Part shown: one piece after another, positions 47,307 through 58,245 of the stretch
Layout: every line of letters begins with the position of its first letter
Position numbering within the stretch: position 1 is the stretch's first letter
Source of the DNA: Burkholderiales bacterium
GTDB taxonomy: Bacteria > Pseudomonadota > Gammaproteobacteria > Burkholderiales > Burkholderiaceae_E
Assembly: GCA_003818495.1 (NCBI GenBank)
Contig: RPRK01000009.1
Location: forward strand, 1-58,411
Direction of reading: 5' to 3'
DNA: 58,411 bases
Notes under the pieces: generated by a model
Told to the model about the DNA's origin: nothing
Databases searched by the model: none
The model's input: only the letters and a program-made list of their open reading frames with translations
Made by a program: the position numbers and the translations under genes

Positions 47307-47939
47307 TCAATCGATCAGCCCATTCCTCAAGCAATAAGCCGTCAGATCCGCATTGGACTGCATCGACAGCTTCTCGAGCACGCGCGCGCGGTAGACCGAG
47401 ACGGTCTTGGGCGACAGGCTCAGCTCGGCGGCGATGTCCGAGAGGCGCTGGCCGGCCGCGAGCCGGATCAGCGTCTGGAACTCCCGGTCGGAGAGCCGTT
47501 CGTGAGGCTTCTCGGAATCGTCGACGGACAGCCGCGTGGCGAGCGCCTCGGCGATCGCCGGCGTGATGTACTTGCGGCCGGCATGCAGCGTGCGGATCGC
47601 CGCGATGATCTGGGACGGGTCGGCCGACTTGTTCAGGTATCCCATCGCGCCGGCCTTGAGCGCCCGGATCGCGTACTGGTCCTCGGGGTACATGGTGAGG
47701 ACCAGCACCCGGATGCGGGTGCTCTCCTCCGCCAGCGAGTGCAGCACGTCGAGGCCGCTGCGGCCGGGCAGGTTGATGTCCAGCAGCAGCACGTCGAACG
47801 CGGTCTCGCGCAGGAGCTGGCGCAGCTCGCCGTAGTCGCCGGCTTCGCCGACCACCCGGATGTCGCCGGCCTCGGTCAGGGAGTCCCGCAGGCCGCGCCG
47901 GATCAGCGCGTGGTCGTCGACGATCACCACATTGATCAT
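47307..47939 (-). CDS. NarL/LuxR-type response regulator
   Basis: A 210-residue regulator. REC has Asp8-Asp9, phosphoacceptor Asp54 (LLLDINLPGR) and Lys104 region (GYLNKSADP, the NarL-type 'NKSA' turn). A C-terminal LuxR helix-turn-helix is at residues 146-205 (LSDREFQTLIRLAAGQRLSD, then AAELSLSPKTVSVYRARVLE). It overlaps the upstream kinase stop by ATGA and so pairs with it. Target genes cannot be read here; the neighbouring chemotaxis operon, divergent from this pair, is a reasonable candidate. Confidence 0.94.
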   Translation of the reverse strand: MINVVIVDDHALIRRGLRDSLTEAGDIRVVGEAGDYGELRQLLRETAFDVLLLDINLPGRSGLDVLHSLAEESTRIRVLVLTMYPEDQYAIRALKAGAMGYLNKSADPSQIIAAIRTLHAGRKYITPAIAEALATRLSVDDSEKPHERLSDREFQTLIRLAAGQRLSDIAAELSLSPKTVSVYRARVLEKLSMQSNADLTAYCLRNGLID

Positions 47940-49075
47940 GCGTCGGTCTCGTCAAGGAGTCGCGACGCCGCCTGCTGCGTCAGGGGGATCGTGAGCATCA
48001 CCGCGCCGCGGCGCTCGCCGACGGCCACGTCGATCCAGCCATGCACCTGACGCACCCGCTCGGTCAGGCCGCGCAGCCCGAAGGAGCCCGGCTTGTCCAT
48101 GTCGGCGGCCCGGATGCCGATGCCGTCGTCGCTGATCTCGAGCGACAGCATGTCGTCCTGCACCACGAGGTCGACCCGGGCCCGGCGGGCCTGCGCGTGC
48201 TTGGCGACGTTGGTGAGCGACTCCTGCGCGACGCGGTAGACGGTGATCGCGATCTGCTCGGTGACCTCGATGCGATCGCGGTTGGACGTGAGCTGCGTGT
48301 CGACGCCGGTGCGGCTGGAGAACTGCTGCACCAGGAAGTCGAGCGCGGCGACGATGCCCGCGTCGAGCGCCGGCGGACGCAGGTTGCGCATGATCCGCTG
48401 CACCGCGAGGACGGCCTGGTTCAGGGTGTCCAGCCCCTGACGCGCCCGTGCCCGCACCGATTCCTCGCCGTGCCGTTCGATCCAGGACAGGTCGAAGCGC
48501 AGCGCGGTGAGCATCCCGCCGACGTCGTCGTGGACCTCGCGGGCGATCGCGGCGCGCTCGTCCTCGACCGCCTGCTGCAGATGGTCGGTCAGGGCGCGCA
48601 GCCGCCGCTCGGACTCGGCCAGGGCCTGCTGGGCGGCACCCCGCTCGCGGCGGGCCGACGCCGCCGACAGCGCGTTGCGAAGTGCCGGCCCGAGCCGCGC
48701 CAGGCGGCCCTTGATCAGGTAGTCGTCGGCGCCGGCCTGCATGGCGGCCACCGCGGCCTCCTCGCCGATGGTGCCCGAGACGATGATGAACGGCAGGTCC
48801 GAGCCGGACGTACGGACGACCCGCAGCGCCTCGCCGCTGGAGAACCGCGGCAGGTGGTGGTCGGAGATGACGGCATCCCAGCTGCGGGAGGCGAGGGCGG
48901 CCCGCAGGCCGGCCTCGTCCTCGACACGGACGGAATCCGGGGCGAGTCGCTGGCGGCGCAGCGAGCGCAGGAGCAGCTCGTAGTCGAGCTCCGAATCCTC
49001 GACGACGAGCAGCCGGATGGGCTCGTCGGCGGCATCCGGACCGTCGGTCGGCTCGAGGGAATTGGTCGGATGCAC
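47936..49075 (-). CDS. Receiver-containing histidine kinase, HisKA_3 (NarX/UhpB type)
   Basis: A 379-residue soluble hybrid. An N-terminal REC domain (residues 19-135) has Asp72 (AVISDHHLPRFSSGEA) and a Lys near 122 (DDYLIKGRLARLG). A coiled segment then leads to HisKA_3 with His182 (ERAAIAREVHDDVGGMLTAL) and a HATPase domain (VAQESLTNVAKHAQARRARV; SDDGIGIRA; GLRGLTERV). No membrane or PAS sensor is present, so its input is probably a phosphoryl group or a partner protein. The start is a GTG. It is coupled to the NarL-type regulator. Confidence 0.92.
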   Translation of the reverse strand: MHPTNSLEPTDGPDAADEPIRLLVVEDSELDYELLLRSLRRQRLAPDSVRVEDEAGLRAALASRSWDAVISDHHLPRFSSGEALRVVRTSGSDLPFIIVSGTIGEEAAVAAMQAGADDYLIKGRLARLGPALRNALSAASARRERGAAQQALAESERRLRALTDHLQQAVEDERAAIAREVHDDVGGMLTALRFDLSWIERHGEESVRARARQGLDTLNQAVLAVQRIMRNLRPPALDAGIVAALDFLVQQFSSRTGVDTQLTSNRDRIEVTEQIAITVYRVAQESLTNVAKHAQARRARVDLVVQDDMLSLEISDDGIGIRAADMDKPGSFGLRGLTERVRQVHGWIDVAVGERRGAVMLTIPLTQQAASRLLDETDA

Positions 49076-49196: not shown

Positions 49197-49616
49197 ATGA
49201 GCGATCAAGAACCAGACGAAGTCAACGGGGCGGTCACCGCGAGGCTCGCGGCCGACATGCAGGACGAACTGCTGGCCGCGGGCACCGAGCTCGAACGGCT
49301 CGAGCGCCTGCTGTCCGATGCGGTGGACCAGCTGCTGGACCGGTTCGGGCGGGCGCACGCGCTCAGCGCGGACATCTCCGACCCGCGCCAGCCGGCGCTG
49401 GCCGGCGAGCTGCGCGCGGCGATGACCGCGCTGCAGTTCCAGGACATGGCGTCCCAGCTGATCGCGCACTCGCGGCGACGGCTGGTGTCGGTGGCCGACT
49501 GCCTCGGGAACGCGGCGATCGGTGGCGAGGAAGAGGGGTGCGAGGTTCAGTGGGTGAATCGCGCGTGCCCGGTCGCACAACGTGCAGTGGATGCGGGCTC
49601 GGTCGAGCTCTTCTGA
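49197..49616 (+). CDS. Short CheZ-like protein, candidate CheY-P phosphatase
   Basis: A 139-residue helical protein, first gene of the chemotaxis operon, 13 nt before cheY. Residues 15-55 form a long helix. The segment ALQFQDMASQLIAHSRRRL (78-96) reproduces the catalytic helix of CheZ, where Asp143 and Gln147 of E. coli in FQDLTGQVI correspond to Asp83 and Gln87 here (DxxxQ). It is shorter than CheZ (~214) and lacks the long hairpin. The C terminus ends in AGSVELF, the same seven residues that end CheD of this operon. The function is inferred from the motif and the position beside cheY; a plain scaffold role is possible. Confidence 0.75.
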   Translation: MSDQEPDEVNGAVTARLAADMQDELLAAGTELERLERLLSDAVDQLLDRFGRAHALSADISDPRQPALAGELRAAMTALQFQDMASQLIAHSRRRLVSVADCLGNAAIGGEEEGCEVQWVNRACPVAQRAVDAGSVELF

Positions 49617-49629
49617 GGATCCGAAAAAA

Positions 49630-50001
49630 ATGGCAATGCGTTCGATTCTTGCTGTGGACGATTCGGCCTCGATGCGCCAGATGGTCTCGTTCACCCTGCG
49701 CAGCTCGGGGTACGACGTGATCGAGGCGGTCGACGGGCAGGACGCGCTCGACAAGCTCGGTGACAAGCAGGTCGACCTGGTCCTCACCGACCAGAACATG
49801 CCGCGCATGGACGGGCTGACGCTGATCAAGCAGCTGCGCGTGCAGGAGCGCTTCAAGCGGACCCCGATCCTGGTGCTGACCACCGAGTCGAGCGACGAGA
49901 TGAAGCAGGCCGGCCGCGCCGCGGGGGCGACCGGTTGGATGGTCAAGCCCTTCGATCCGGCGCGGCTGCTCGAAGTCATCGGCAAGGTCCTGCCCCAGTG
50001 A
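49630..50001 (+). CDS. cheY: Chemotaxis response regulator CheY
   Basis: A 123-residue single REC domain. Asp10-Asp11 (AVDDSASMRQM), phosphoacceptor Asp54 (VLTDQNMPRMDGL), Thr at LTTESS and Lys in GWMVKPFDP are all present. A GAGG box lies 11 nt before the ATG, overlapping the stop of the CheZ-like gene. It carries the signal from CheA to the flagellar motor. It is the only cheY in the window, and its cognate dephosphorylating protein is probably the upstream CheZ-like gene. Confidence 0.95.
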   Translation: MAMRSILAVDDSASMRQMVSFTLRSSGYDVIEAVDGQDALDKLGDKQVDLVLTDQNMPRMDGLTLIKQLRVQERFKRTPILVLTTESSDEMKQAGRAAGATGWMVKPFDPARLLEVIGKVLPQ

Positions 50002-50017: not shown

Positions 50018-52165
50018 ATGAGCGAAACACAGTCTCAAGACAACGGCGGCGCGTTCGACCTGTCGCAGTTCCACGGCGTCTTCTTCGAGGAGGCGGGCGA
50101 GAACCTCGCCAACATGGAGACGCTGCTGCTGGAACTCGACGTCGACAGCGCCGACGACGAGGCGCTGAACGCGATCTTCCGCTGCGCGCACTCGATCAAG
50201 GGCGGCGCCGCGACCTTCGGCTTCCAGGATGTCGCCGACCTCACGCACGTGATGGAGACGCTGCTCGACAAGCTGCGCCGCCACGAGCTGACGGCGACGA
50301 TCGGGATGGTCGACACGCTGCTCGAGTCGGGCGACGTGCTGCGGCACCTGCTGTCGCGCCACCAGGCCGGAGCCGCCGAGCACGAGGCGCTCGACTGTTC
50401 CGAACTGGTCGCCCGGATCGGTGCGCTGGCGCACGGCAGCGCGGCTGCCGCGCCGGTCCCGCCGTCGGCGCCGGCCCCTGCCGCCGCCGTCGTCGCGGCG
50501 CCGGTCGCCGTGCCGGCGCTGCCCGAACCCGTGCTCGCCGAGGGCGAGCGCCTGATCGAACTGGCGATCGGTCCGCTCGAGCGGCCGGACACCGCCGATC
50601 ACCTGGCCGAGCTGTTCACCGAGATCCCCGGCCTCGGCCGCATCGAGGCGACCGACGGCGGACAGGCCGACGCCGAGGGGATGCGCCGCTTCCGCGTCAT
50701 CACCTCGACCCCGGACAGCGACCTGCTCGACCTGTTCTCCTTCCACGTCGATCGCGAGCAGGTGCGCCTGGGTGCGCCGGCGGCAGCCGCCGCACCGGCC
50801 GCATCGCCCGCGCCCGCCGCGCCCGCCGCGCCGGCACCGAAAGCGGCGGCCGTCGAGAACGCCGACTACGGATTCTTCGTCGATCTTCCGAGCGAAGCCG
50901 CACCGGCCGCGTCGGCGACCGCCGCGACGGCGCCGGCTGCGGCCCCCGCGCCCAAGCCCGCCGCGAAGGCCGGCGACCGGCCGGCGACCGGCGCGACCGC
51001 CCTCGAGAGCACCTCGATCCGGGTGCCGATCGAGAAGGTCGACCAGCTGATCAACCTGGTCGGCGAACTCGTGATCACGCAGGCCATGCTCGCGCAGACC
51101 GGCCAGGCGCTCGATCCGGTCGTGCACCAGGGCATGGCCACCGGACTGACCGACCTCGAGCGCAACACCCGGATGCTCCAGGAAGCGGTGATGGCCATCC
51201 GGATGATCCCGATGGCGGTCGTCTTCAACCGCTTCCCGAGGATGCTGCGCGACCTGGCCGGCAAGCTCGGCAAGCAGGTCGAGCTGCAGACGATCGGCGA
51301 GGACACCGAGCTCGACAAGGGCCTGATCGAGAAGATCACCGACCCGCTGACGCACCTGGTGCGCAACGCGGCCGACCACGGCATCGAGATGCCCGAGGTG
51401 CGGATCGCGGCCGGCAAGCCCGCGCTGGGCACCGTCACGCTCGCCGCGGCCCACCAGGGCGGCTCGATCGTCATCGAGGTGCGCGACGACGGCCGCGGCC
51501 TGAACCGCGACAAGCTGCTGAAGAAGGCGATCGAACGCGGTCTGCCGGTGAGCGACCAGATGACGGACCAGGAGGTCTACGGTCTCATCTTCGAGCCCGG
51601 ATTCTCCACCGCCGCCGAGGTCACCGACGTGTCGGGCCGAGGCGTCGGCATGGACGTGGTCAAGCGCAACATCGCCTCGCTCGGCGGTTCGGTCGAGATC
51701 GACTCGACCGAGGGCCGCGGCATGCGGGTGTCGGTGCGACTGCCGCTGACCCTGGCGATCATGGACGGCATGTCCGTCGGCGTCGCCGAGGAGACCTACA
51801 TCGTGCCGCTCGCGTCGGTGGTGGAGTCGATCCACCTCTCGGCGGGCGACATCAAGTCGGTCGGCGGCACCGGCCGCGTGGTCGAGGTGCGCAACGAGTA
51901 CCTGCCCCTGCTGGCGCTCGACGAGCTGTTCGCCGTGCCCCGCAAGGAGCCGGTGTCGGGCGGAATCATGATCGTCGTGGAGGCCGAGGGCGGACGCATC
52001 GCGCTGATCGTCGACGAACTGATCGGCCAGCATCAGGTCGTCGTCAAGAACCTCGAGGCGAACTACCGCAAGGTGCCGGGCGTTTCCGGCGCGACCATCC
52101 TCGGCGACGGCCAGGTGGCATTGATCCTCGACGTGTCGTGGCTGGTCCGCCGCGCGCGTCACTGA
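50018..52165 (+). CDS. cheA: Chemotaxis histidine kinase CheA
   Basis: A 715-residue CheA. P1/HPt has His58 ([16 protein letters not shown]). A P2-like domain lies at ~175-250, flanked by Ala/Pro linkers. A short [10 protein letters not shown] segment sits inside the second linker. P3 dimerisation starts at [20 protein letters not shown] (~335). P4 kinase has [12 protein letters not shown] (N box), VRDDGRGLN (G1) and [21 protein letters not shown]5 is CheW-like to the end ([15 protein letters not shown]). The GAGG Shine-Dalgarno is 5-8 nt before the ATG. It is the core of the array with CheW and the MCP. Confidence 0.96.
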
Positions 52166-52188: not shown

Positions 52189-52680
52189 ATGGCTGCACAC
52201 GATCGGGCGCACGACGCGGCAACGGCCGCACGGCCGCGCGAGTACCTGACCTTCAGGCTCGGCGAGGAGGAGTACGGCATCGACATCCTGAAGGTCCAGG
52301 AGATCCGAGGCTACGAGCAGCCGACCCGGATCGCCAACGCGCCCGCGTTCATCAAGGGCGTGGTCAACCTTCGCGGCGTGATCGTGCCGATCGTCGACCT
52401 GAGGCTGAAGTTCAACCTCGGCTCGGCCGAATACAACGACTTCACGGTCGTGATCATCCTGAACCTCGGGGCGCGCGTGGTCGGCATCGTCGTCGACTCG
52501 GTCTCCGACGTGATGGAGCTCGCGCCCGAGCAGATCCGGCCGGCGCCGGAGGTGGGGGCGGCCGTCGAGGCCGACTTCATCACCGGGCTGGGCACGCTCA
52601 ACGACCGGATGCTGATCCTGATCGAGATCGAGCGGCTGATGAGCGCAGCCGACATGGCCCTGGCCGAGCAGGCCGCCTGA
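52189..52680 (+). CDS. cheW: Chemotaxis coupling protein CheW
   Basis: A 163-residue SH3-like coupling protein: [38 protein letters not shown] near residue 60 and [13 protein letters not shown] near 100. It links the MCP to CheA. GGAGAG lies 7 nt before the ATG. A Gly-Leu-Gly loop ([20 protein letters not shown]) is intact. No second cheW is seen. Confidence 0.95.
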
Positions 52681-52766: not shown

Positions 52767-53237
52767 ATGAAGCACACTGGTTCGATCAAGGCCTGCGTCG
52801 CCGCCTTCGTGGCGTGCTGCGCACTGGGAGTCGCCCACGCCAAGAGCGAGTTCGCCACGCCCGACGAGGCGACCGCGATGGTCAAGAAGGGCGTCGCCTT
52901 CATCAAGTCGAACGGCAAGGACAAGGGCTGGGCAGAGATCAGCAACAAGTCCGGCATGTTCAACGACCGCGACCTGTACCTGGTGGTCTACGGGCTGGAC
53001 GGAACGGTCCATGCGCACGGCGCCAACGAGAAGATGATCGGGCGCAACCTGATCGAGCTCAAGGACGTCGACGGCAAGCCCTTCGTGAAGGAGCGCGTCG
53101 AGCTGGGTCGGGCCAAGCCCAACTTCTGGCAGGACTACAAGTTCACCAACCCGGTGAGCAAGAAGGTCGAGCCCAAGCAGATGTACTGCGAGCGCCTGGA
53201 CGAGACCGTCGTCTGCGGCGGCGTCTACAAGAACTGA
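52767..53237 (+). CDS. Solo periplasmic single-Cache (sCache) protein
   Basis: A 156-residue exported protein: signal peptide KHTGSIKACVAAFVACCALG with cleavage after AHA (~residue 25), then a lone sCache fold of ~130 residues with LYLVVYGLDGTVHAHGANEK and GRNLIELKDVDGKPFVKE, the usual ligand-pocket strands. It has no transmembrane segment or output domain. GAGGAG is 7 nt before the ATG. It sits between cheW and the MCP gene, so it may bind a ligand and present it to the MCP, whose own periplasmic part is a plain helical bundle. The biological role is inferred only from location. Confidence 0.85.
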   Translation: MKHTGSIKACVAAFVACCALGVAHAKSEFATPDEATAMVKKGVAFIKSNGKDKGWAEISNKSGMFNDRDLYLVVYGLDGTVHAHGANEKMIGRNLIELKDVDGKPFVKERVELGRAKPNFWQDYKFTNPVSKKVEPKQMYCERLDETVVCGGVYKN

Positions 53238-53285: not shown

Positions 53286-55337
53286 ATGAAGCTTCGAGTC
53301 AAGTTGCTGCTGTTGCCCGCGATCGGCGGCGCATCCCTGGTGGCCCTGTGCGTGCTGGTCACCCTGATGCAGCTGCGCTCGAACCGGGAACTCTCGACCC
53401 TCGCCGACGTGAGGTTCGAGAACTACGCGTCGGCCTACCGCGTCGAGGGTGAGCTGGCCTCGATGCACGCCGAGGCCTACCGGACGATCCTGTGGATCGA
53501 CTCGCTGCAGGCGTCGGTGGTCAAGGGGCGGCGCGATGCGCTCGTCCAGCGCGGCAACGCGCTGGTCGAGAAGCTGGGCGCGATGCGCAACGGCGCCGAT
53601 GCGGACGGGGCGGCCCGCCTGGACACGCTGTCGGCGGCCGCCACGAAGTACGCGAAGGCGGTCGACGACGCGGTCGACATGGCCTCGGTCGATGCCAACA
53701 CCGGCCTCGCCGCGATGCAGACGGCCGATGCGCAGTACAAGGCGGCGTCGAAGGTCGCCGCGGAACTGCTCGAGGTCGAGCGCCGCCTCGCGACCGACTC
53801 GGTCGCCGCCGCCAAGTCGCGCGACGAACGCAACCTGATGATCCTCTGGATCGCCACGGCGGCGTCGCTGCTGGCTGCGTTCGGATTCTCGGTCGTCTTC
53901 AACCGCCGCCTGCTGGTGCCGCTCAACGCGGCCCGCGAGGCGGCCGACTCGATCGCCGCCGGTGACCTGAGGGTGCGCCTGCCCGAGCCGCCGAACGACG
54001 AGATCGGTCAGCTCATCTCGGCGCTGCGCCGGATGTCCGAGCACCTGAGCCGCACGCTCGGCTCGATCAAGGACTCCACCGAGCAGATCGCCACCGCCTC
54101 GACCGAGATCGCGGTGGGCAACAACGACCTCAGCCGCCGGACCGAGCAGCAGGCCTCGAACCTGCAGCAGACCTCCAGCAGCATGGAGCAGCTCACCGGT
54201 ACCGTGGCCACCAACGCCGACAGCGCGCGCCAGGCCAACCAGCTCGCGCTCGGCGCCTCCGAGGTCGCCCGGCGCGGCGGCGAGGTCGTCGAGCAGGTCG
54301 TCGCCACGATGGGCGAGATCAGCGACAGCTCGCGCAAGATCGCCGACATCATCTCGGTGATCGACGGCATCGCCTTCCAGACCAACATCCTCGCCCTGAA
54401 CGCCGCGGTCGAGGCCGCCCGTGCCGGCGAACAGGGCCGCGGCTTCGCGGTCGTGGCCGGCGAGGTGCGCAGCCTCGCGCAGCGCAGCGCCGAGGCCGCC
54501 CGCCAGATCAAGGGTCTGATCACCGACAGCGTCGAGCGCGTCGATTCCGGCAGCCGCCTGGTGAAGGACGCCGGCACCACGATGTCCGAGATCGTGACCT
54601 CGGTGCGCCGGGTGACCGACATCATCGGCGAGATCTCGTCGGCGACCGGCGAGCAGAGCGCCGGCATCGGACAGGTCAACACCGCCGTGAACCAGCTCGA
54701 CCGGATGACGCAGCAGAACGCGGCCCTGGTCGAGGAAAGCGCGGCCGCCGCCGAGAGCCTGAAGGAACAGGCGCGTCGCCTGGCCGAGGCGGTCGACGCC
54801 TTCCGCCTCGACGACGGATCGCGCGGATCGTCCGATCCGGTGTCGTCCTCGGCGCGTGCCGCGTCGATGCCCCCGGCCGCCAGCTCGGATCACGAGCCGT
54901 CCTGGAACGCCGAGGCCGTGACGGCGCCGAAGGCCGCGGGCCCTGCGGGCGGCGATGCGGGCGCCTGGAAGCCGGCGGCTGCCGCGAAGCCTGCGCCCGC
55001 CGCGAAGCCCGTCCAGGCCGCCAAGACGCCGGCGCCGGTCAAGGCCCCGGTCTCGAAGTCGCCTTCGGCCAAGGCTGCTCCGGTCCGTGCCGTGCCGTCC
55101 AGCCTGATGGCTGCGCCGACCCCGACGAGCGCCTCGGCGCCGACGCAGTCCCCGACGCCCACGCCGGCCAAGGCGGTGGCGCCGGCGACGAACGCCGCCC
55201 CGTCCCGGACCGAGTCGGCGCCGTCGCGTGCGGCGGCGGCACCGGCGGCCCGCGCGCCGGCTCCGGCACCCGCGCCGGCACCGGCACCGGCACCGAAGGC
55301 CGCCAAGGTCCCCGACGACGACTGGGAAGAGTTTTGA
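53286..55337 (+). CDS. Methyl-accepting chemotaxis protein with long C-terminal tether
   Basis: A 683-residue MCP. TM1 is at ~6-28, a four-helix-bundle periplasmic domain at ~29-185, TM2 at ~187-205 and HAMP to ~260. The signalling domain (to ~510) has the hairpin tip DGIAFQTNILALNAAVEAAR and flanking methylation helices (e.g. EQQASNLQQTSSSMEQLTGT). Residues ~511-677 are an Ala/Pro/Lys-rich, probably disordered tail ending in DDDWEEF, a CheR/CheB-docking pentapeptide of the WxxF type. This tail of about 170 residues is far longer than the ~35 of E. coli receptors. Confidence 0.95.
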   Translation: MKLRVKLLLLPAIGGASLVALCVLVTLMQLRSNRELSTLADVRFENYASAYRVEGELASMHAEAYRTILWIDSLQASVVKGRRDALVQRGNALVEKLGAMRNGADADGAARLDTLSAAATKYAKAVDDAVDMASVDANTGLAAMQTADAQYKAASKVAAELLEVERRLATDSVAAAKSRDERNLMILWIATAASLLAAFGFSVVFNRRLLVPLNAAREAADSIAAGDLRVRLPEPPNDEIGQLISALRRMSEHLSRTLGSIKDSTEQIATASTEIAVGNNDLSRRTEQQASNLQQTSSSMEQLTGTVATNADSARQANQLALGASEVARRGGEVVEQVVATMGEISDSSRKIADIISVIDGIAFQTNILALNAAVEAARAGEQGRGFAVVAGEVRSLAQRSAEAARQIKGLITDSVERVDSGSRLVKDAGTTMSEIVTSVRRVTDIIGEISSATGEQSAGIGQVNTAVNQLDRMTQQNAALVEESAAAAESLKEQARRLAEAVDAFRLDDGSRGSSDPVSSSARAASMPPAASSDHEPSWNAEAVTAPKAAGPAGGDAGAWKPAAAAKPAPAAKPVQAAKTPAPVKAPVSKSPSAKAAPVRAVPSSLMAAPTPTSASAPTQSPTPTPAKAVAPATNAAPSRTESAPSRAAAAPAARAPAPAPAPAPAPAPKAAKVPDDDWEEF

Positions 55338-55520: not shown

Positions 55521-56378
55521 ATGAGCGCCCCGTCACCGCTCGGCAACGAAGTCGCGATCTCTCCCGGCGACTTCGAGCGCGTGCGCCGCCTGATCAAGGA
55601 ACGGGCAGGCATCCACCTGCAGCCCAGCAAGCAGAGCATGGTCCAGGGACGGCTCGCGCGCCTGCTGCGCGAGCATGGCATCGCGACCTACGGCGCGCTG
55701 CTCGATACCGTCGAGCGCGCCGGCTCGCCGCTCTGGCAGCCGTTCGTCAACGCGCTCACGACCAACCTGACCTCGTTCTTCCGCGAGGCCTACCACTTTC
55801 CGTTGCTGGCCGAGTTCCTCAAGCAGCACCGTGGCCCCGTCCGGATCTGGTGCGCGGCCGCCTCCACCGGCGAGGAGCCGTGGTCGATCGCGATGACCGT
55901 GCTCGAGACCCTCGGCCCGAGCGCACAGGCCACGATCTACGCCTCGGACATCGACACCGACGTGCTGCGCACGGCGCAGGCGGGCGTGTATCCGCTGGAC
56001 AACGAGAAGGGCCTCGATGCCGGCCGCCTCAAGCGCTGGTTCCTCAAGGGCACCGCCGCGAACGCCGGCCTGGTGCGCGTGCGCCCCGAGCTCAAGCGGC
56101 TCGTGGAGTTCGGGCAGGTGAACCTGGTCCACGACCCGCTGCGTTTCCAGCAGCCCTTCGATGTCGTGTTCTGCCGCAACGTGATGATCTACTTCGACGC
56201 CCCGACGCAGCGCACCGTCCTCACGCGCCTGCACGCGTCCATGCGCCCCGGCGGCCTGCTGTTCGTCGGCCATTCCGAGAACTTCTCGGCCCAGAGCGAT
56301 CTCTTCTCGCTGCGCGGCAAGACCGTGTACGAGCGGCTCGCCGAGCGGCAGGCACGGGAACCCGAATGCATCCGATGA
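55521..56378 (+). CDS. cheR: Chemotaxis protein methyltransferase CheR
   Basis: A 285-residue CheR. An N-terminal helical domain ([20 protein letters not shown]) leads into the SAM-dependent methyltransferase fold with [17 protein letters not shown] (~residue 113), ASDIDTDVL and [11 protein letters not shown] β-subdomain that binds the receptor pentapeptide is included. It methylates MCP glutamates. Its substrate tether is the DWEEF end of the MCP encoded upstream. The stop overlaps the cheD start region. Confidence 0.95.
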
Positions 56379-57052
56379 ATCCGACGACCGCGGCATCGCT
56401 GCGCCAGACCGCCCCGGGCCTGTTCCCGAAGAGCTCGGACAAGATCCGGGCCCTGCGCGAGCGCCCGGCGCGCGAGTACGAGGCGCACACCTTCTACTAC
56501 GACGCGTCGTTCAAGACGGACGCGGTCAAGATCCTGCCCGGCGAGTACTACGTCCACGACGGCGACGACCTGCTGCTGATGACGGTCCTGGGCTCGTGCG
56601 TCGCGGCCTGCCTGGTCGACCGCAGCGCCCGGCTCGGCGGCATGAACCACTTCATGCTGCCCGACGGCGGCACCGCCGGTCGGTACGGCGCCTATGCGAT
56701 GGAGCTGCTCATCAACGAGATGATGAAGCGCGGCGCGCGTCGCGAACGGCTCGAGGCGAAGGTGTTCGGCGGCGGGCAGGTCATGCGCAACTTCTCGACG
56801 ATGAACGTCGGCGAGCAGAACGTGAAGTTCATCGAGCAGTTCCTCGCCGCCGAACGCATCCAGATCGTCTCGCGCGACGTGCTCGACATCCATCCCCGCA
56901 AGGTCTGCCTGTTCCCCGGCAGTGCCCGTGCGTTGTGCAAGAAGCTCGCCACGACCCAGGTCGATGCGATCGCGACCGAGGAGTCCGCATTCCGCGGACG
57001 TCTGAGCAAGCAGCCGGCTGCGGCCAGCGCAGGCAGCGTCGAGCTGTTCTAG
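56366..57052 (+). CDS. cheD: Chemoreceptor glutamine deamidase CheD
   Basis: A 228-residue CheD. Catalytic Cys78 ([13 protein letters not shown]) and His95 (GGMNHFMLP) are present, with GQVMRNF and NVKFIEQFL further on. It deamidates receptor Gln to Glu. The ~40-residue N-terminal extension and a C-terminal ~18-residue tail ending AGSVELF exceed the core; the tail is shared with the CheZ-like protein. Two starts are possible: 56366 (GGA 6 nt upstream) or 56375, which gives an ATGA overlap with cheR and a product three residues shorter. Confidence 0.92.
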
Positions 57053-57069: not shown

Positions 57070-58194
57070 TTGAGCAAGATACGCGTGGTGGTCGTCGACG
57101 ATTCGGCCCTGATCCGCAGCATGCTGTCCAGCCTCATCAATTCGCAGCCCGACATGGAGTGCATCGGCGCGGCCAACGATCCCTATCAGGCGCGGGAGAT
57201 GATCCGCAACCTCGATCCGGACGTGATCACGCTCGATGTCGAGATGCCGCGCATGGACGGGCTGGATTTCCTGGAGAAGCTGATGCGGCTGCGGCCGATG
57301 CCGGTGGTGATGGTGTCGACGCTCACCGAGCGCGGTGCCGAGACGACGCTGCGCGCACTCGAGCTCGGAGCGGTCGATTTCGTCGCGAAGCCGCGGATCG
57401 GCATCGCGACCGGCCTGCAGGAGATGGCGAACGAGATCGCCGACAAGCTTCGGATCGCGGCACGCGCGCGCATCACGCGACGTGCCGTCGCCCGCCCGGC
57501 GCCGCCCTCGGCGACGCCGCGGGCGGCCGGTTCGGGCACGACGGCCCCGGGCGCGCCGCCGCTGGTGAAGGCGGTTCCGATCAGCTACTCCCGCGCCAGC
57601 ACCGAGAAGCTCATCGCCATCGGCTCGTCGACGGGCGGAACCGAGGCGCTGCGCGAGGTGCTCACGCAGTTGCCGGCGGACTGCCCGGCGGTGCTCTGCA
57701 CGCAGCACATGCCGCCCGGCTTCACGAAGAGTTTCGCGGACCGGCTCAACGCGCTGTGCCGGATGCACGTGAAGGAGGCGGAGCACGGCGAGCGCGTGCT
57801 GCCGGGTCACGTCTACATCGCGCCGGGCGGCCGGCACATGCTGCTGGCGCGCAGCGGCGCGAACTACGTGATCGAACTGGACGACGGTCCGCCGGTGAAC
57901 CGGCACAAGCCGTCGGTGGACGTGATGTTCCGGACGGTGGCCAAGCATGCGGGCGCCAACGCGATGGGCGTGATGCTGACGGGCATGGGCCGGGACGGGG
58001 CGGACGCCATGAAGGAGATGCGCGACGCGGGTGCCTACAACATCGGGCAGGACGAGGCCACGTCGGTGGTCTACGGGATGCCGCGGGAGGCGTTCGCGGT
58101 CGGGGCGGTGCACGAGGTGCTGCCGCTGCCGCGCATCGCGGGGCAGCTGCTGCAGCACCTGCGGGCGGCGGGTCCGGTCCTCTCCCGGGTCTGA
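57070..58194 (+). CDS. cheB: Chemotaxis methylesterase/deamidase CheB
   Basis: A 374-residue CheB. REC has Asp10-Asp11 and phosphoacceptor Asp56 ([13 protein letters not shown]). The linker (~135-175) is longer than in E. coli and Pro/Ala rich. The methylesterase has Ser187 ([13 protein letters not shown]), His213 (TQHMPPGF) and Asp309 ([10 protein letters not shown]), with the same 26 and 96 residue spacings as the E. coli triad. The start is TTG ([12 protein letters not shown] is the usual N terminus), supported by an AAGGAG Shine-Dalgarno 6 nt upstream. Last gene of the chemotaxis operon. Confidence 0.95.
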
Positions 58195-58209: not shown

Positions 58210-58245
58210 ACGAAGCCCGCCGGATGCGAGTCCGGCGGGCTTCGT
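58210..58245 (+). terminator. Strong terminator hairpin after cheB
   Basis: ACGAAGCCCGCCGGA (58210-58224) pairs perfectly over 15 bp with TCCGGCGGGCTTCGT (58231-58245), with a 6-base loop, followed by a short T-containing stretch (CGTTCT). It begins 15 bases after the cheB stop, so the operon ends here and no cheY-cheZ pair follows in the same transcript. Confidence 0.85.

Follow-up and report, generated by a model that had tools for sequence, protein, structure and literature searches.

Chemosensory gene clusters of the F7 type raise the question of how the signal carried by their CheY is ended. In the available part of a published survey, a CheY is encoded in F7 clusters of stages 1-2 and only F6 clusters include cheZ; the stage 3 systems of beta-proteobacteria have an F6 cheY-cheZ pair elsewhere and have lost the mcpA-like gene (PMC7184735, 2020). 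The window analysed here, i.e. the whole stretch of 58,411 nucleotides from a Burkholderiales bacterium (assembly GCA_003818495.1, contig RPRK01000009.1), contains a chemotaxis operon that opens with a gene for a short protein, designated ZL, which an earlier note on this DNA had proposed as a possible minimal CheY-P phosphatase replacing cheZ. The features of the locus are as follows.

47936..49075, - strand: divergent receiver-HisKA_3 histidine kinase (Pfam; upstream in 77 of the 80 related loci that are the best 80 of 373)
49197..49616, + strand: mini-CheZ-like protein ZL, 139 aa (translation, AlphaFold model, homologue alignments)
49428..49463, + strand: ALQFQDMASQLI, residues 78-89 of ZL, CheZ signature AxxFQ + DxxxQ (signature from the available part of PMC7750401)
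49596..49616, + strand: ZL tail codons, GSVELF and stop (pattern search)
49630..50001, + strand: cheY, 123 aa, F7-type by its cluster (Pfam Response_reg, 1.3e-28)
50018..52165, + strand: cheA (Pfam)
52189..52680, + strand: cheW (Pfam CheW, 6.1e-41)
52767..53237, + strand: stand-alone sCache_2 protein, 156 aa (Pfam)
53286..55337, + strand: chemoreceptor, HAMP-MCPsignal, C-terminus DDDWEEF (Pfam, translation)
55521..56378, + strand: cheR (Pfam)
56366..57052, + strand: cheD, 228 aa, C-terminus ...SAGSVELF (Pfam CheD, 9.4e-29; translation)
57032..57052, + strand: cheD tail codons, GSVELF and stop (the one further genomic match to the tail pattern)
57070..58194, + strand: cheB (Pfam CheB_methylest, 5.7e-69)
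58211..58244, + strand: perfect 14-bp inverted repeat 3' of cheB, terminator-like with a weak T tract (no call by the terminator scanner)

Translation confirmed the 139-residue reading frame with D83 (base 49443) and Q87 (base 49455), the catalytic-type residues, in DxxxQ spacing. Residues 78-87 (ALQFQDMASQ) match the catalytic DxxxQ together with the adjacent AxxFQ, as in the CheZ signature AxxFQ-DxxxQ given in the available part of PMC7750401. In a single-chain AlphaFold model, in which 64 of the 139 residues have a pLDDT of at least 90, helix 1 (residues 15-57) and a kinked helix 2 (residues 65-79 and 82-108) are predicted to form a helical hairpin like that of CheZ, and no structure is predicted for the linker and the C-terminal tail. 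A CheZ-type N-terminal helix is absent from the model, residues 1-14 being non-helical and residues 1-9 having a pLDDT below 50.

The operon comprises, by Pfam assignments, ZL, cheY, cheA, cheW, the gene of the stand-alone sCache_2 protein, mcp, cheR, cheD and cheB, in that order. The cheY-cheA-cheW-mcp-cheR-cheD-cheB succession, with cheZ elsewhere in the genome, is that of the F7 stage 3 cluster in the available part of PMC7184735, and the F7 class is assigned from gene order alone. The locus differs from the published cluster in the slot before cheY, which is taken here by the ZL gene and in some genomes of the same order by a receptor that bears ZL. The ZL stop codon lies 13 bp from the cheY start, and this arrangement, described in the earlier note, is kept in relatives: among the best 80 of 373 confirmed relatives from a genome-contig search (titled Burkholderiales, member taxa or broader groups), cheY follows ZL directly in 79, the exception (L059) being a locus that ends before cheY, and the tail is present in 79, with GSITLF in the remaining one (L080). 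Since ZL is also matched in 22 of 61 related genomes searched (in two of these inside receptors), its reading frame is not a product of chance. The divergent kinase, which may regulate the che operon, is missing from three loci (L045, L046 and L111), in two of which (L045 and L111) the match lies less than 400 bases from the start of the contig. The "strong terminator" that the earlier note placed after cheB survives in part: the perfect 14-bp repeat at 58211 is there, but its T tract is poor and it was not among the calls of the terminator scanner. The sCache_2 protein, encoded between cheW and the receptor gene, has by eye a signal-like N-terminus; comparable proteins are encoded in related loci (e.g. 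L047, L056, L060, L090 and L097), which makes a separate periplasmic partner for ligand binding possible.

Alignment of 30 diverse stand-alone homologues left only L46, Q80, D83, Q87, G134, L138 and F139 as invariant columns. The family profile was then run against 276 genomes sampled from across the class (Gammaproteobacteria in GTDB), and loci with matches to about E 4e-5, together with a few weaker ones, were fetched. These contained 103 distinct frames, of which 80 also match MCP, 21 are stand-alone or other members and two are canonical CheZ. At the positions of Q80, D83 and Q87, 68/68 fused frames and 21/21 other members aligned have the same residues, in a sample conditioned on matching a profile in which these very columns weigh heavily. 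In the CheZ-like catalytic helix noted earlier, Q80, D83 and Q87 are invariant across three homologue alignments.

In many genomes the ZL module sits in receptors of about 400 aa, which are McpA-like by tail and gene neighbourhood; these fused forms, as well as the tail shared with CheD, had escaped the earlier note. The fused frames were split at the tip of the MCP hairpin, which could be located by pattern in 68 of the 80 (the other 12 were dropped). The helix-2 profile matched 68/68 C-halves (after the tip) and 0/68 N-halves at E <= 1, and the helix-1 profile matched the N-halves of 28/68 at E <= 0.01 and 43/68 at E <= 1, against C-halves of 0/68 at E <= 0.1 and 1/68 at E <= 1; helix 1 is therefore undetectable in a third or more of the receptors. 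At the level of sequence profiles, this places the receptor hairpin between the two helices of the ZL module. ZL itself has no MCPsignal match in Pfam.

The two forms also alternate at one genomic position. When 20 regions from further genomes of the order and family were compared at the slot directly before an F7-type cheY, this slot held a ZL-bearing receptor in six (L178, L179, L180, L181, L183 and L187) and a stand-alone family protein in five (L182, L184, L185, L186 and L193); the remaining regions had neither form at the slot or did not cover it. The source genome, too, carries such a ZL-bearing receptor (420 aa, tail EVTFF), on contig C59, before its own cheY and cheA; this second che cluster (L227, 4534-15152) encodes a CheD that lacks the tail. 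In a tree of the module (88 columns), stand-alone forms are scattered in several places among the fused ones, which is suggestive only. A further stand-alone form (L231, L238, L295, L296, L301 and L305), with a helix mostly of the FQFYD- or LQF.DRL-type, is encoded near cheR and mostly also cheD, and its proteins end in ELF or DLF in five of six cases (not L296). Searches of a plasmid collection with tblastn gave no match for ZL and none for a fused receptor; the latter result is surprising for an MCP and hence was unused as evidence.

How close this family stands to CheZ was approached from both sides. ZL matched neither Pfam CheZ (PF04344) nor any other Pfam family at E <= 10, those of CheC, CheX and FliY included, and single-sequence scans against Pfam and NCBIfam returned nothing useful. 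BLASTP of ZL against the CheZ of its own genome gave a best E of 0.99, away from the motif. A profile search of solved structures reached a best E of 0.29 and contained no CheZ, and Foldseek against the PDB had no match at E <= 0.001; CheZ was absent from the 50 matches listed, at the head of which stood LOV-histidine-kinase structures. Weak Pfam CheZ matches appeared in 4 of 16 ZL orthologues at E <= 1 (best E 0.005), and hhalign against CheZ gave probabilities of 13.6 and 18.8, with 1 of 200 column shuffles scoring equally high.

In the other direction, a profile of helix 2 was used; one built from the whole C-halves was set aside because these contain an MCP helix and match ordinary MCPs. 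Run against 6,133 sequences, the helix-2 profile ranked canonical CheZ next below the family members. The top score among 300 shuffled CheZ, 12.4 bits, was exceeded by ten of 15 CheZ and not by the other five, including that of the source genome; reversed CheZ reached at most 4.3 bits. Among 5,803 other frames, 20 lay above the shuffle line, namely 18 family members and two further canonical copies of CheZ. Moreover, 18 matches of the family profile in the class search fall within canonical CheZ genes, and the Pfam CheZ model, built independently, matches four family receptors at 9e-5 to 2.3e-4, under its cut-off; it gave 11 such below-cut-off matches in the class sample, the remaining seven lying in frames not identified as family. 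The profile comparison that the earlier note had called for hence yields a weak similarity in both directions, and neither the Pfam cut-off nor a high hhalign probability (13.6-18.8) was reached.

ZL and CheZ share an AxxFQ-DxxxQ helix in a (predicted) hairpin, followed by a linker and a short terminal segment ending in F, and the ZL gene, too, adjoins a cheY. They differ in length (139 aa for ZL versus 214 aa for CheZ), in the N-terminal helix, which is not predicted for ZL, in the hairpin, predicted to be shorter than that of E. coli CheZ, in the tail (GSVELF versus ...DDLLSSLGF in the CheZ of the source genome, with no likeness in letters beyond the final F), in the Pfam match, which ZL lacks, and in the coexistence of ZL with a canonical CheZ. 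Across family members, AxxFQ has a variable last Q and, two residues before it, an invariant Q. A shortened hairpin has been reported in one CheZ, according to the available part of PMC7750401. Judged by these comparisons of sequence, ZL is a distant relative of CheZ; it probably works like CheZ, yet it falls outside the Pfam family.

The canonical cheZ of the genome lies on another contig (C187; E 2.4e-58, C-terminus VDDLLSSLGF), where by eye a cheY frame precedes it. Because this is the sole Pfam CheZ match in the genome, the che operon indeed has no regular cheZ, as first noted. The assembly has an estimated contamination of 5.74%, and the presence of cheZ agrees with near relatives, 17 of the 18 other genomes of the same family with a ZL gene also carrying it (18 of 19 with the source genome, the exception being G010); cheZ was found in 35 of the 61 genomes searched. 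In the class sample, 85 genomes had a match to the family profile, 118 a CheZ match and 76 both; in 18 of the 85, the profile matches include the canonical CheZ, which in some of these genomes is the sole match. A replacement of cheZ by ZL in the source genome is contradicted by the gene on C187, unless that contig is contamination. As nine of the 85 profile-positive genomes lack a CheZ match, replacement may occur elsewhere. Two genomes without a CheZ match (G176 and G277) encode stand-alone family proteins 3' of cheB with the tail NKGDVTLF (L204, 1264-1968, and L205, 1288-1968), which are candidates for a true replacement of cheZ.

The ZL tail, G-x-[VI]-[ED]-L-F, links the protein to a second product of its operon. 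In the 5.3-Mb genome, the DNA pattern G-x-[VIM]-[ED]-[LF]-F-stop occurs twice, in ZL and in the cheD of the operon, and the reversed pattern once; across 61 genomes the tail pattern gave 79 matches versus 19 for the reversed one (sums made by hand, and some of the matches end in TGG rather than a stop). Over all the loci fetched, 172/198 family proteins and 46/54 CheD have the relaxed tail, compared with 1/179 CheY, none of 66 CheW, 122 CheB, 80 CheA, 116 MCP, 53 CheR, 90 RRHK, 14 Cache and 26 CheZ, and 11/14,937 background frames. Some loci had been fetched with the tail pattern, and the fair figure for CheD is therefore that of a CheD family search, in which 28 of 30 genomes had the tail on their best CheD by the relaxed pattern and 22 by the strict one; of the other two CheD, one ends ITFF and one runs on. 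Six of the 28 have one further residue behind the tail, and in these a free carboxylate is not a requirement. The search gave 22 further CheD matches, two of which were read: that of G049 on C63 has the tail and the second CheD of the source genome, on C59, does not.

A terminal peptide of this form may have been met before. The available part of PMC7184735 (2020) describes for McpA-like receptors a strikingly conserved C-terminus with valine as the second of the last five residues, of unclear role and without CheR binding; we take it to be the tail of ZL and CheD, an equation made by description. Receptors of this kind (a "24H" or 44H outlier type), with P. aeruginosa McpA/CttP, V. cholerae VCA1088 and S. 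oneidensis SO_2117 as examples (PMC7184735, PMC7534058, PMC9855816), are by description like ZL in this C-terminus and in their F7-cluster location: ZL has an xVxxF-type end (SVELF) and is linked to an F7 gene cluster by operon order. Unlike them, ZL has no MCP hairpin; in the receptors examined here, the ZL helices flank that hairpin. No phosphatase function is proposed for McpA-like receptors in the available sections of these three papers.

The reading that we favour, with a probability of about 0.6, sees in ZL a shortened phosphatase of CheZ-like type that stands alone and serves specifically the CheY of the F7 cluster, with a docking tail common to CheD. The two helices of ZL are predicted to form a hairpin, and pairing of two such hairpins would, as in CheZ, build a dimeric four-helix bundle. 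Like their counterparts in CheZ, the invariant D83 and Q87 would reach into the active site of CheY-P and assist water in removing the phosphoryl group. Less surely, the peptide GSVELF, at the end of a linker with no predicted structure, may dock on CheY-P like the C-terminal helix of CheZ. AlphaFold models of read-through ZL-CheY chains gave no sign of such docking (pTM 0.40; mean pLDDT 43 for residues 141-150 with the tail), a result of little weight in either direction. As CheD carries GSVELF too, CheD and the phosphatase may be drawn to the same partner, and such a common partner would couple signal termination to receptor adaptation. Receptors that contain the module, with the kinase-control hairpin between its two helices, would be CheY-P phosphatases embedded in the array, and the flagellar CheY would depend on the canonical cheZ on contig C187. 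A missing phosphatase of the F7 CheY seems to us the simplest account of ZL.

Other readings can be set against the same data. Short DxxxQ helices are also a feature of HisKA_3 kinases, and the likeness to CheZ could be a convergence on such a helix, leaving ZL possibly a phosphatase but unrelated to CheZ. The modest significance of the hhalign comparison, one of the 16 orthologues that matches HisKA_3 at 0.013 and the LOV-histidine-kinase structures at the head of the fold matches listed would all suit this; it is nevertheless unlikely given that, with the helix-2 profile, 10 of 15 CheZ outscore all unrelated frames of the 5,803, that the Pfam CheZ model recognises four family receptors, and that hairpin, linker and terminal segment follow each other in identical order in ZL and in CheZ (PMC7750401, in its available part). 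ZL might instead be an adaptor or localiser derived from CheZ that has lost phosphatase activity, its tail tethering it and CheD to the array (CheA/CheW or a receptor) and its DxxxQ serving only for binding. In favour of this, CheD, which shares the tail, is no phosphatase, the fused receptors place the module in a likely array component, and McpA-like receptors associate with the F6 array in the available text of PMC7184735 and PMC7534058; we regard it as rather improbable, since the strict invariance of D and Q (68/68 fused, 21/21 other aligned members) exceeds the need of binding.

The tail itself could be imagined as a tether for CheR or CheB, similar to the NWETF-type pentapeptide of receptors, which would make ZL a regulator of methylation. 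Its xVxxF form is near to the -x-[HFYW]-x(2)-[HFYW] tether, and both CheR and CheB are encoded in the operon. However, in P. aeruginosa McpA the valine prevents interaction with any of four CheR (PMC7184735, available in part), the receptor of the operon already ends in DWEEF, and the tail is carried by CheD and by a protein that is no receptor, so we consider a tether very improbable. Least credible of all is the earlier proposal of a minimal replacement for cheZ: the operon has no cheZ of its own and 9 of 85 profile-positive class genomes lack a CheZ match, but the canonical gene is present in the source genome, in 18 of 19 same-family ZL genomes and in 76 of the 85. A more fitting reading of ZL is that of a second phosphatase, acting on the other (F7) CheY.

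The proposed dedicated phosphatase has a partial parallel in the CheC-CheD pair of Bacillus subtilis (PMC3513319, in its available part), where a protein linked to CheY-P, there CheC, works with CheD; the present case differs in that ZL and CheD share a terminal peptide and ZL has no CheC match in Pfam. CheZ, McpA and CheD are each of known kinds, and a link between them was not met in the available parts of the open-licence PMC literature searched, in whose titles and abstracts a fusion of CheZ with a receptor was likewise not found. A wider reading, which we offer tentatively and at somewhat less than even odds, is that many unusual chemoreceptors, both McpA-like ones and their relatives encoded immediately before cheY-cheA in other clusters, form a large class of CheY-P phosphatases integrated into the array, with the kinase-control hairpin set in a CheZ-like hairpin. 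The stand-alone mini-CheZ would then be the module minus the receptor, an [VI][ED]LF code would recruit these proteins and CheD to one partner, most likely CheY-P, and canonical CheZ may descend from a receptor-like hairpin.

A CheZ-like module with a terminal peptide common to CheD offers a concrete and testable answer to two questions, that of the F7 CheY without a cheZ and that of the role of the McpA C-terminus. If true, a new family of phosphatases would be added, some receptors would remove the signal as well as trigger it, and signal termination would be linked to CheD-based adaptation. The finding thus suggests an off-switch for a poorly understood second chemosensory system.
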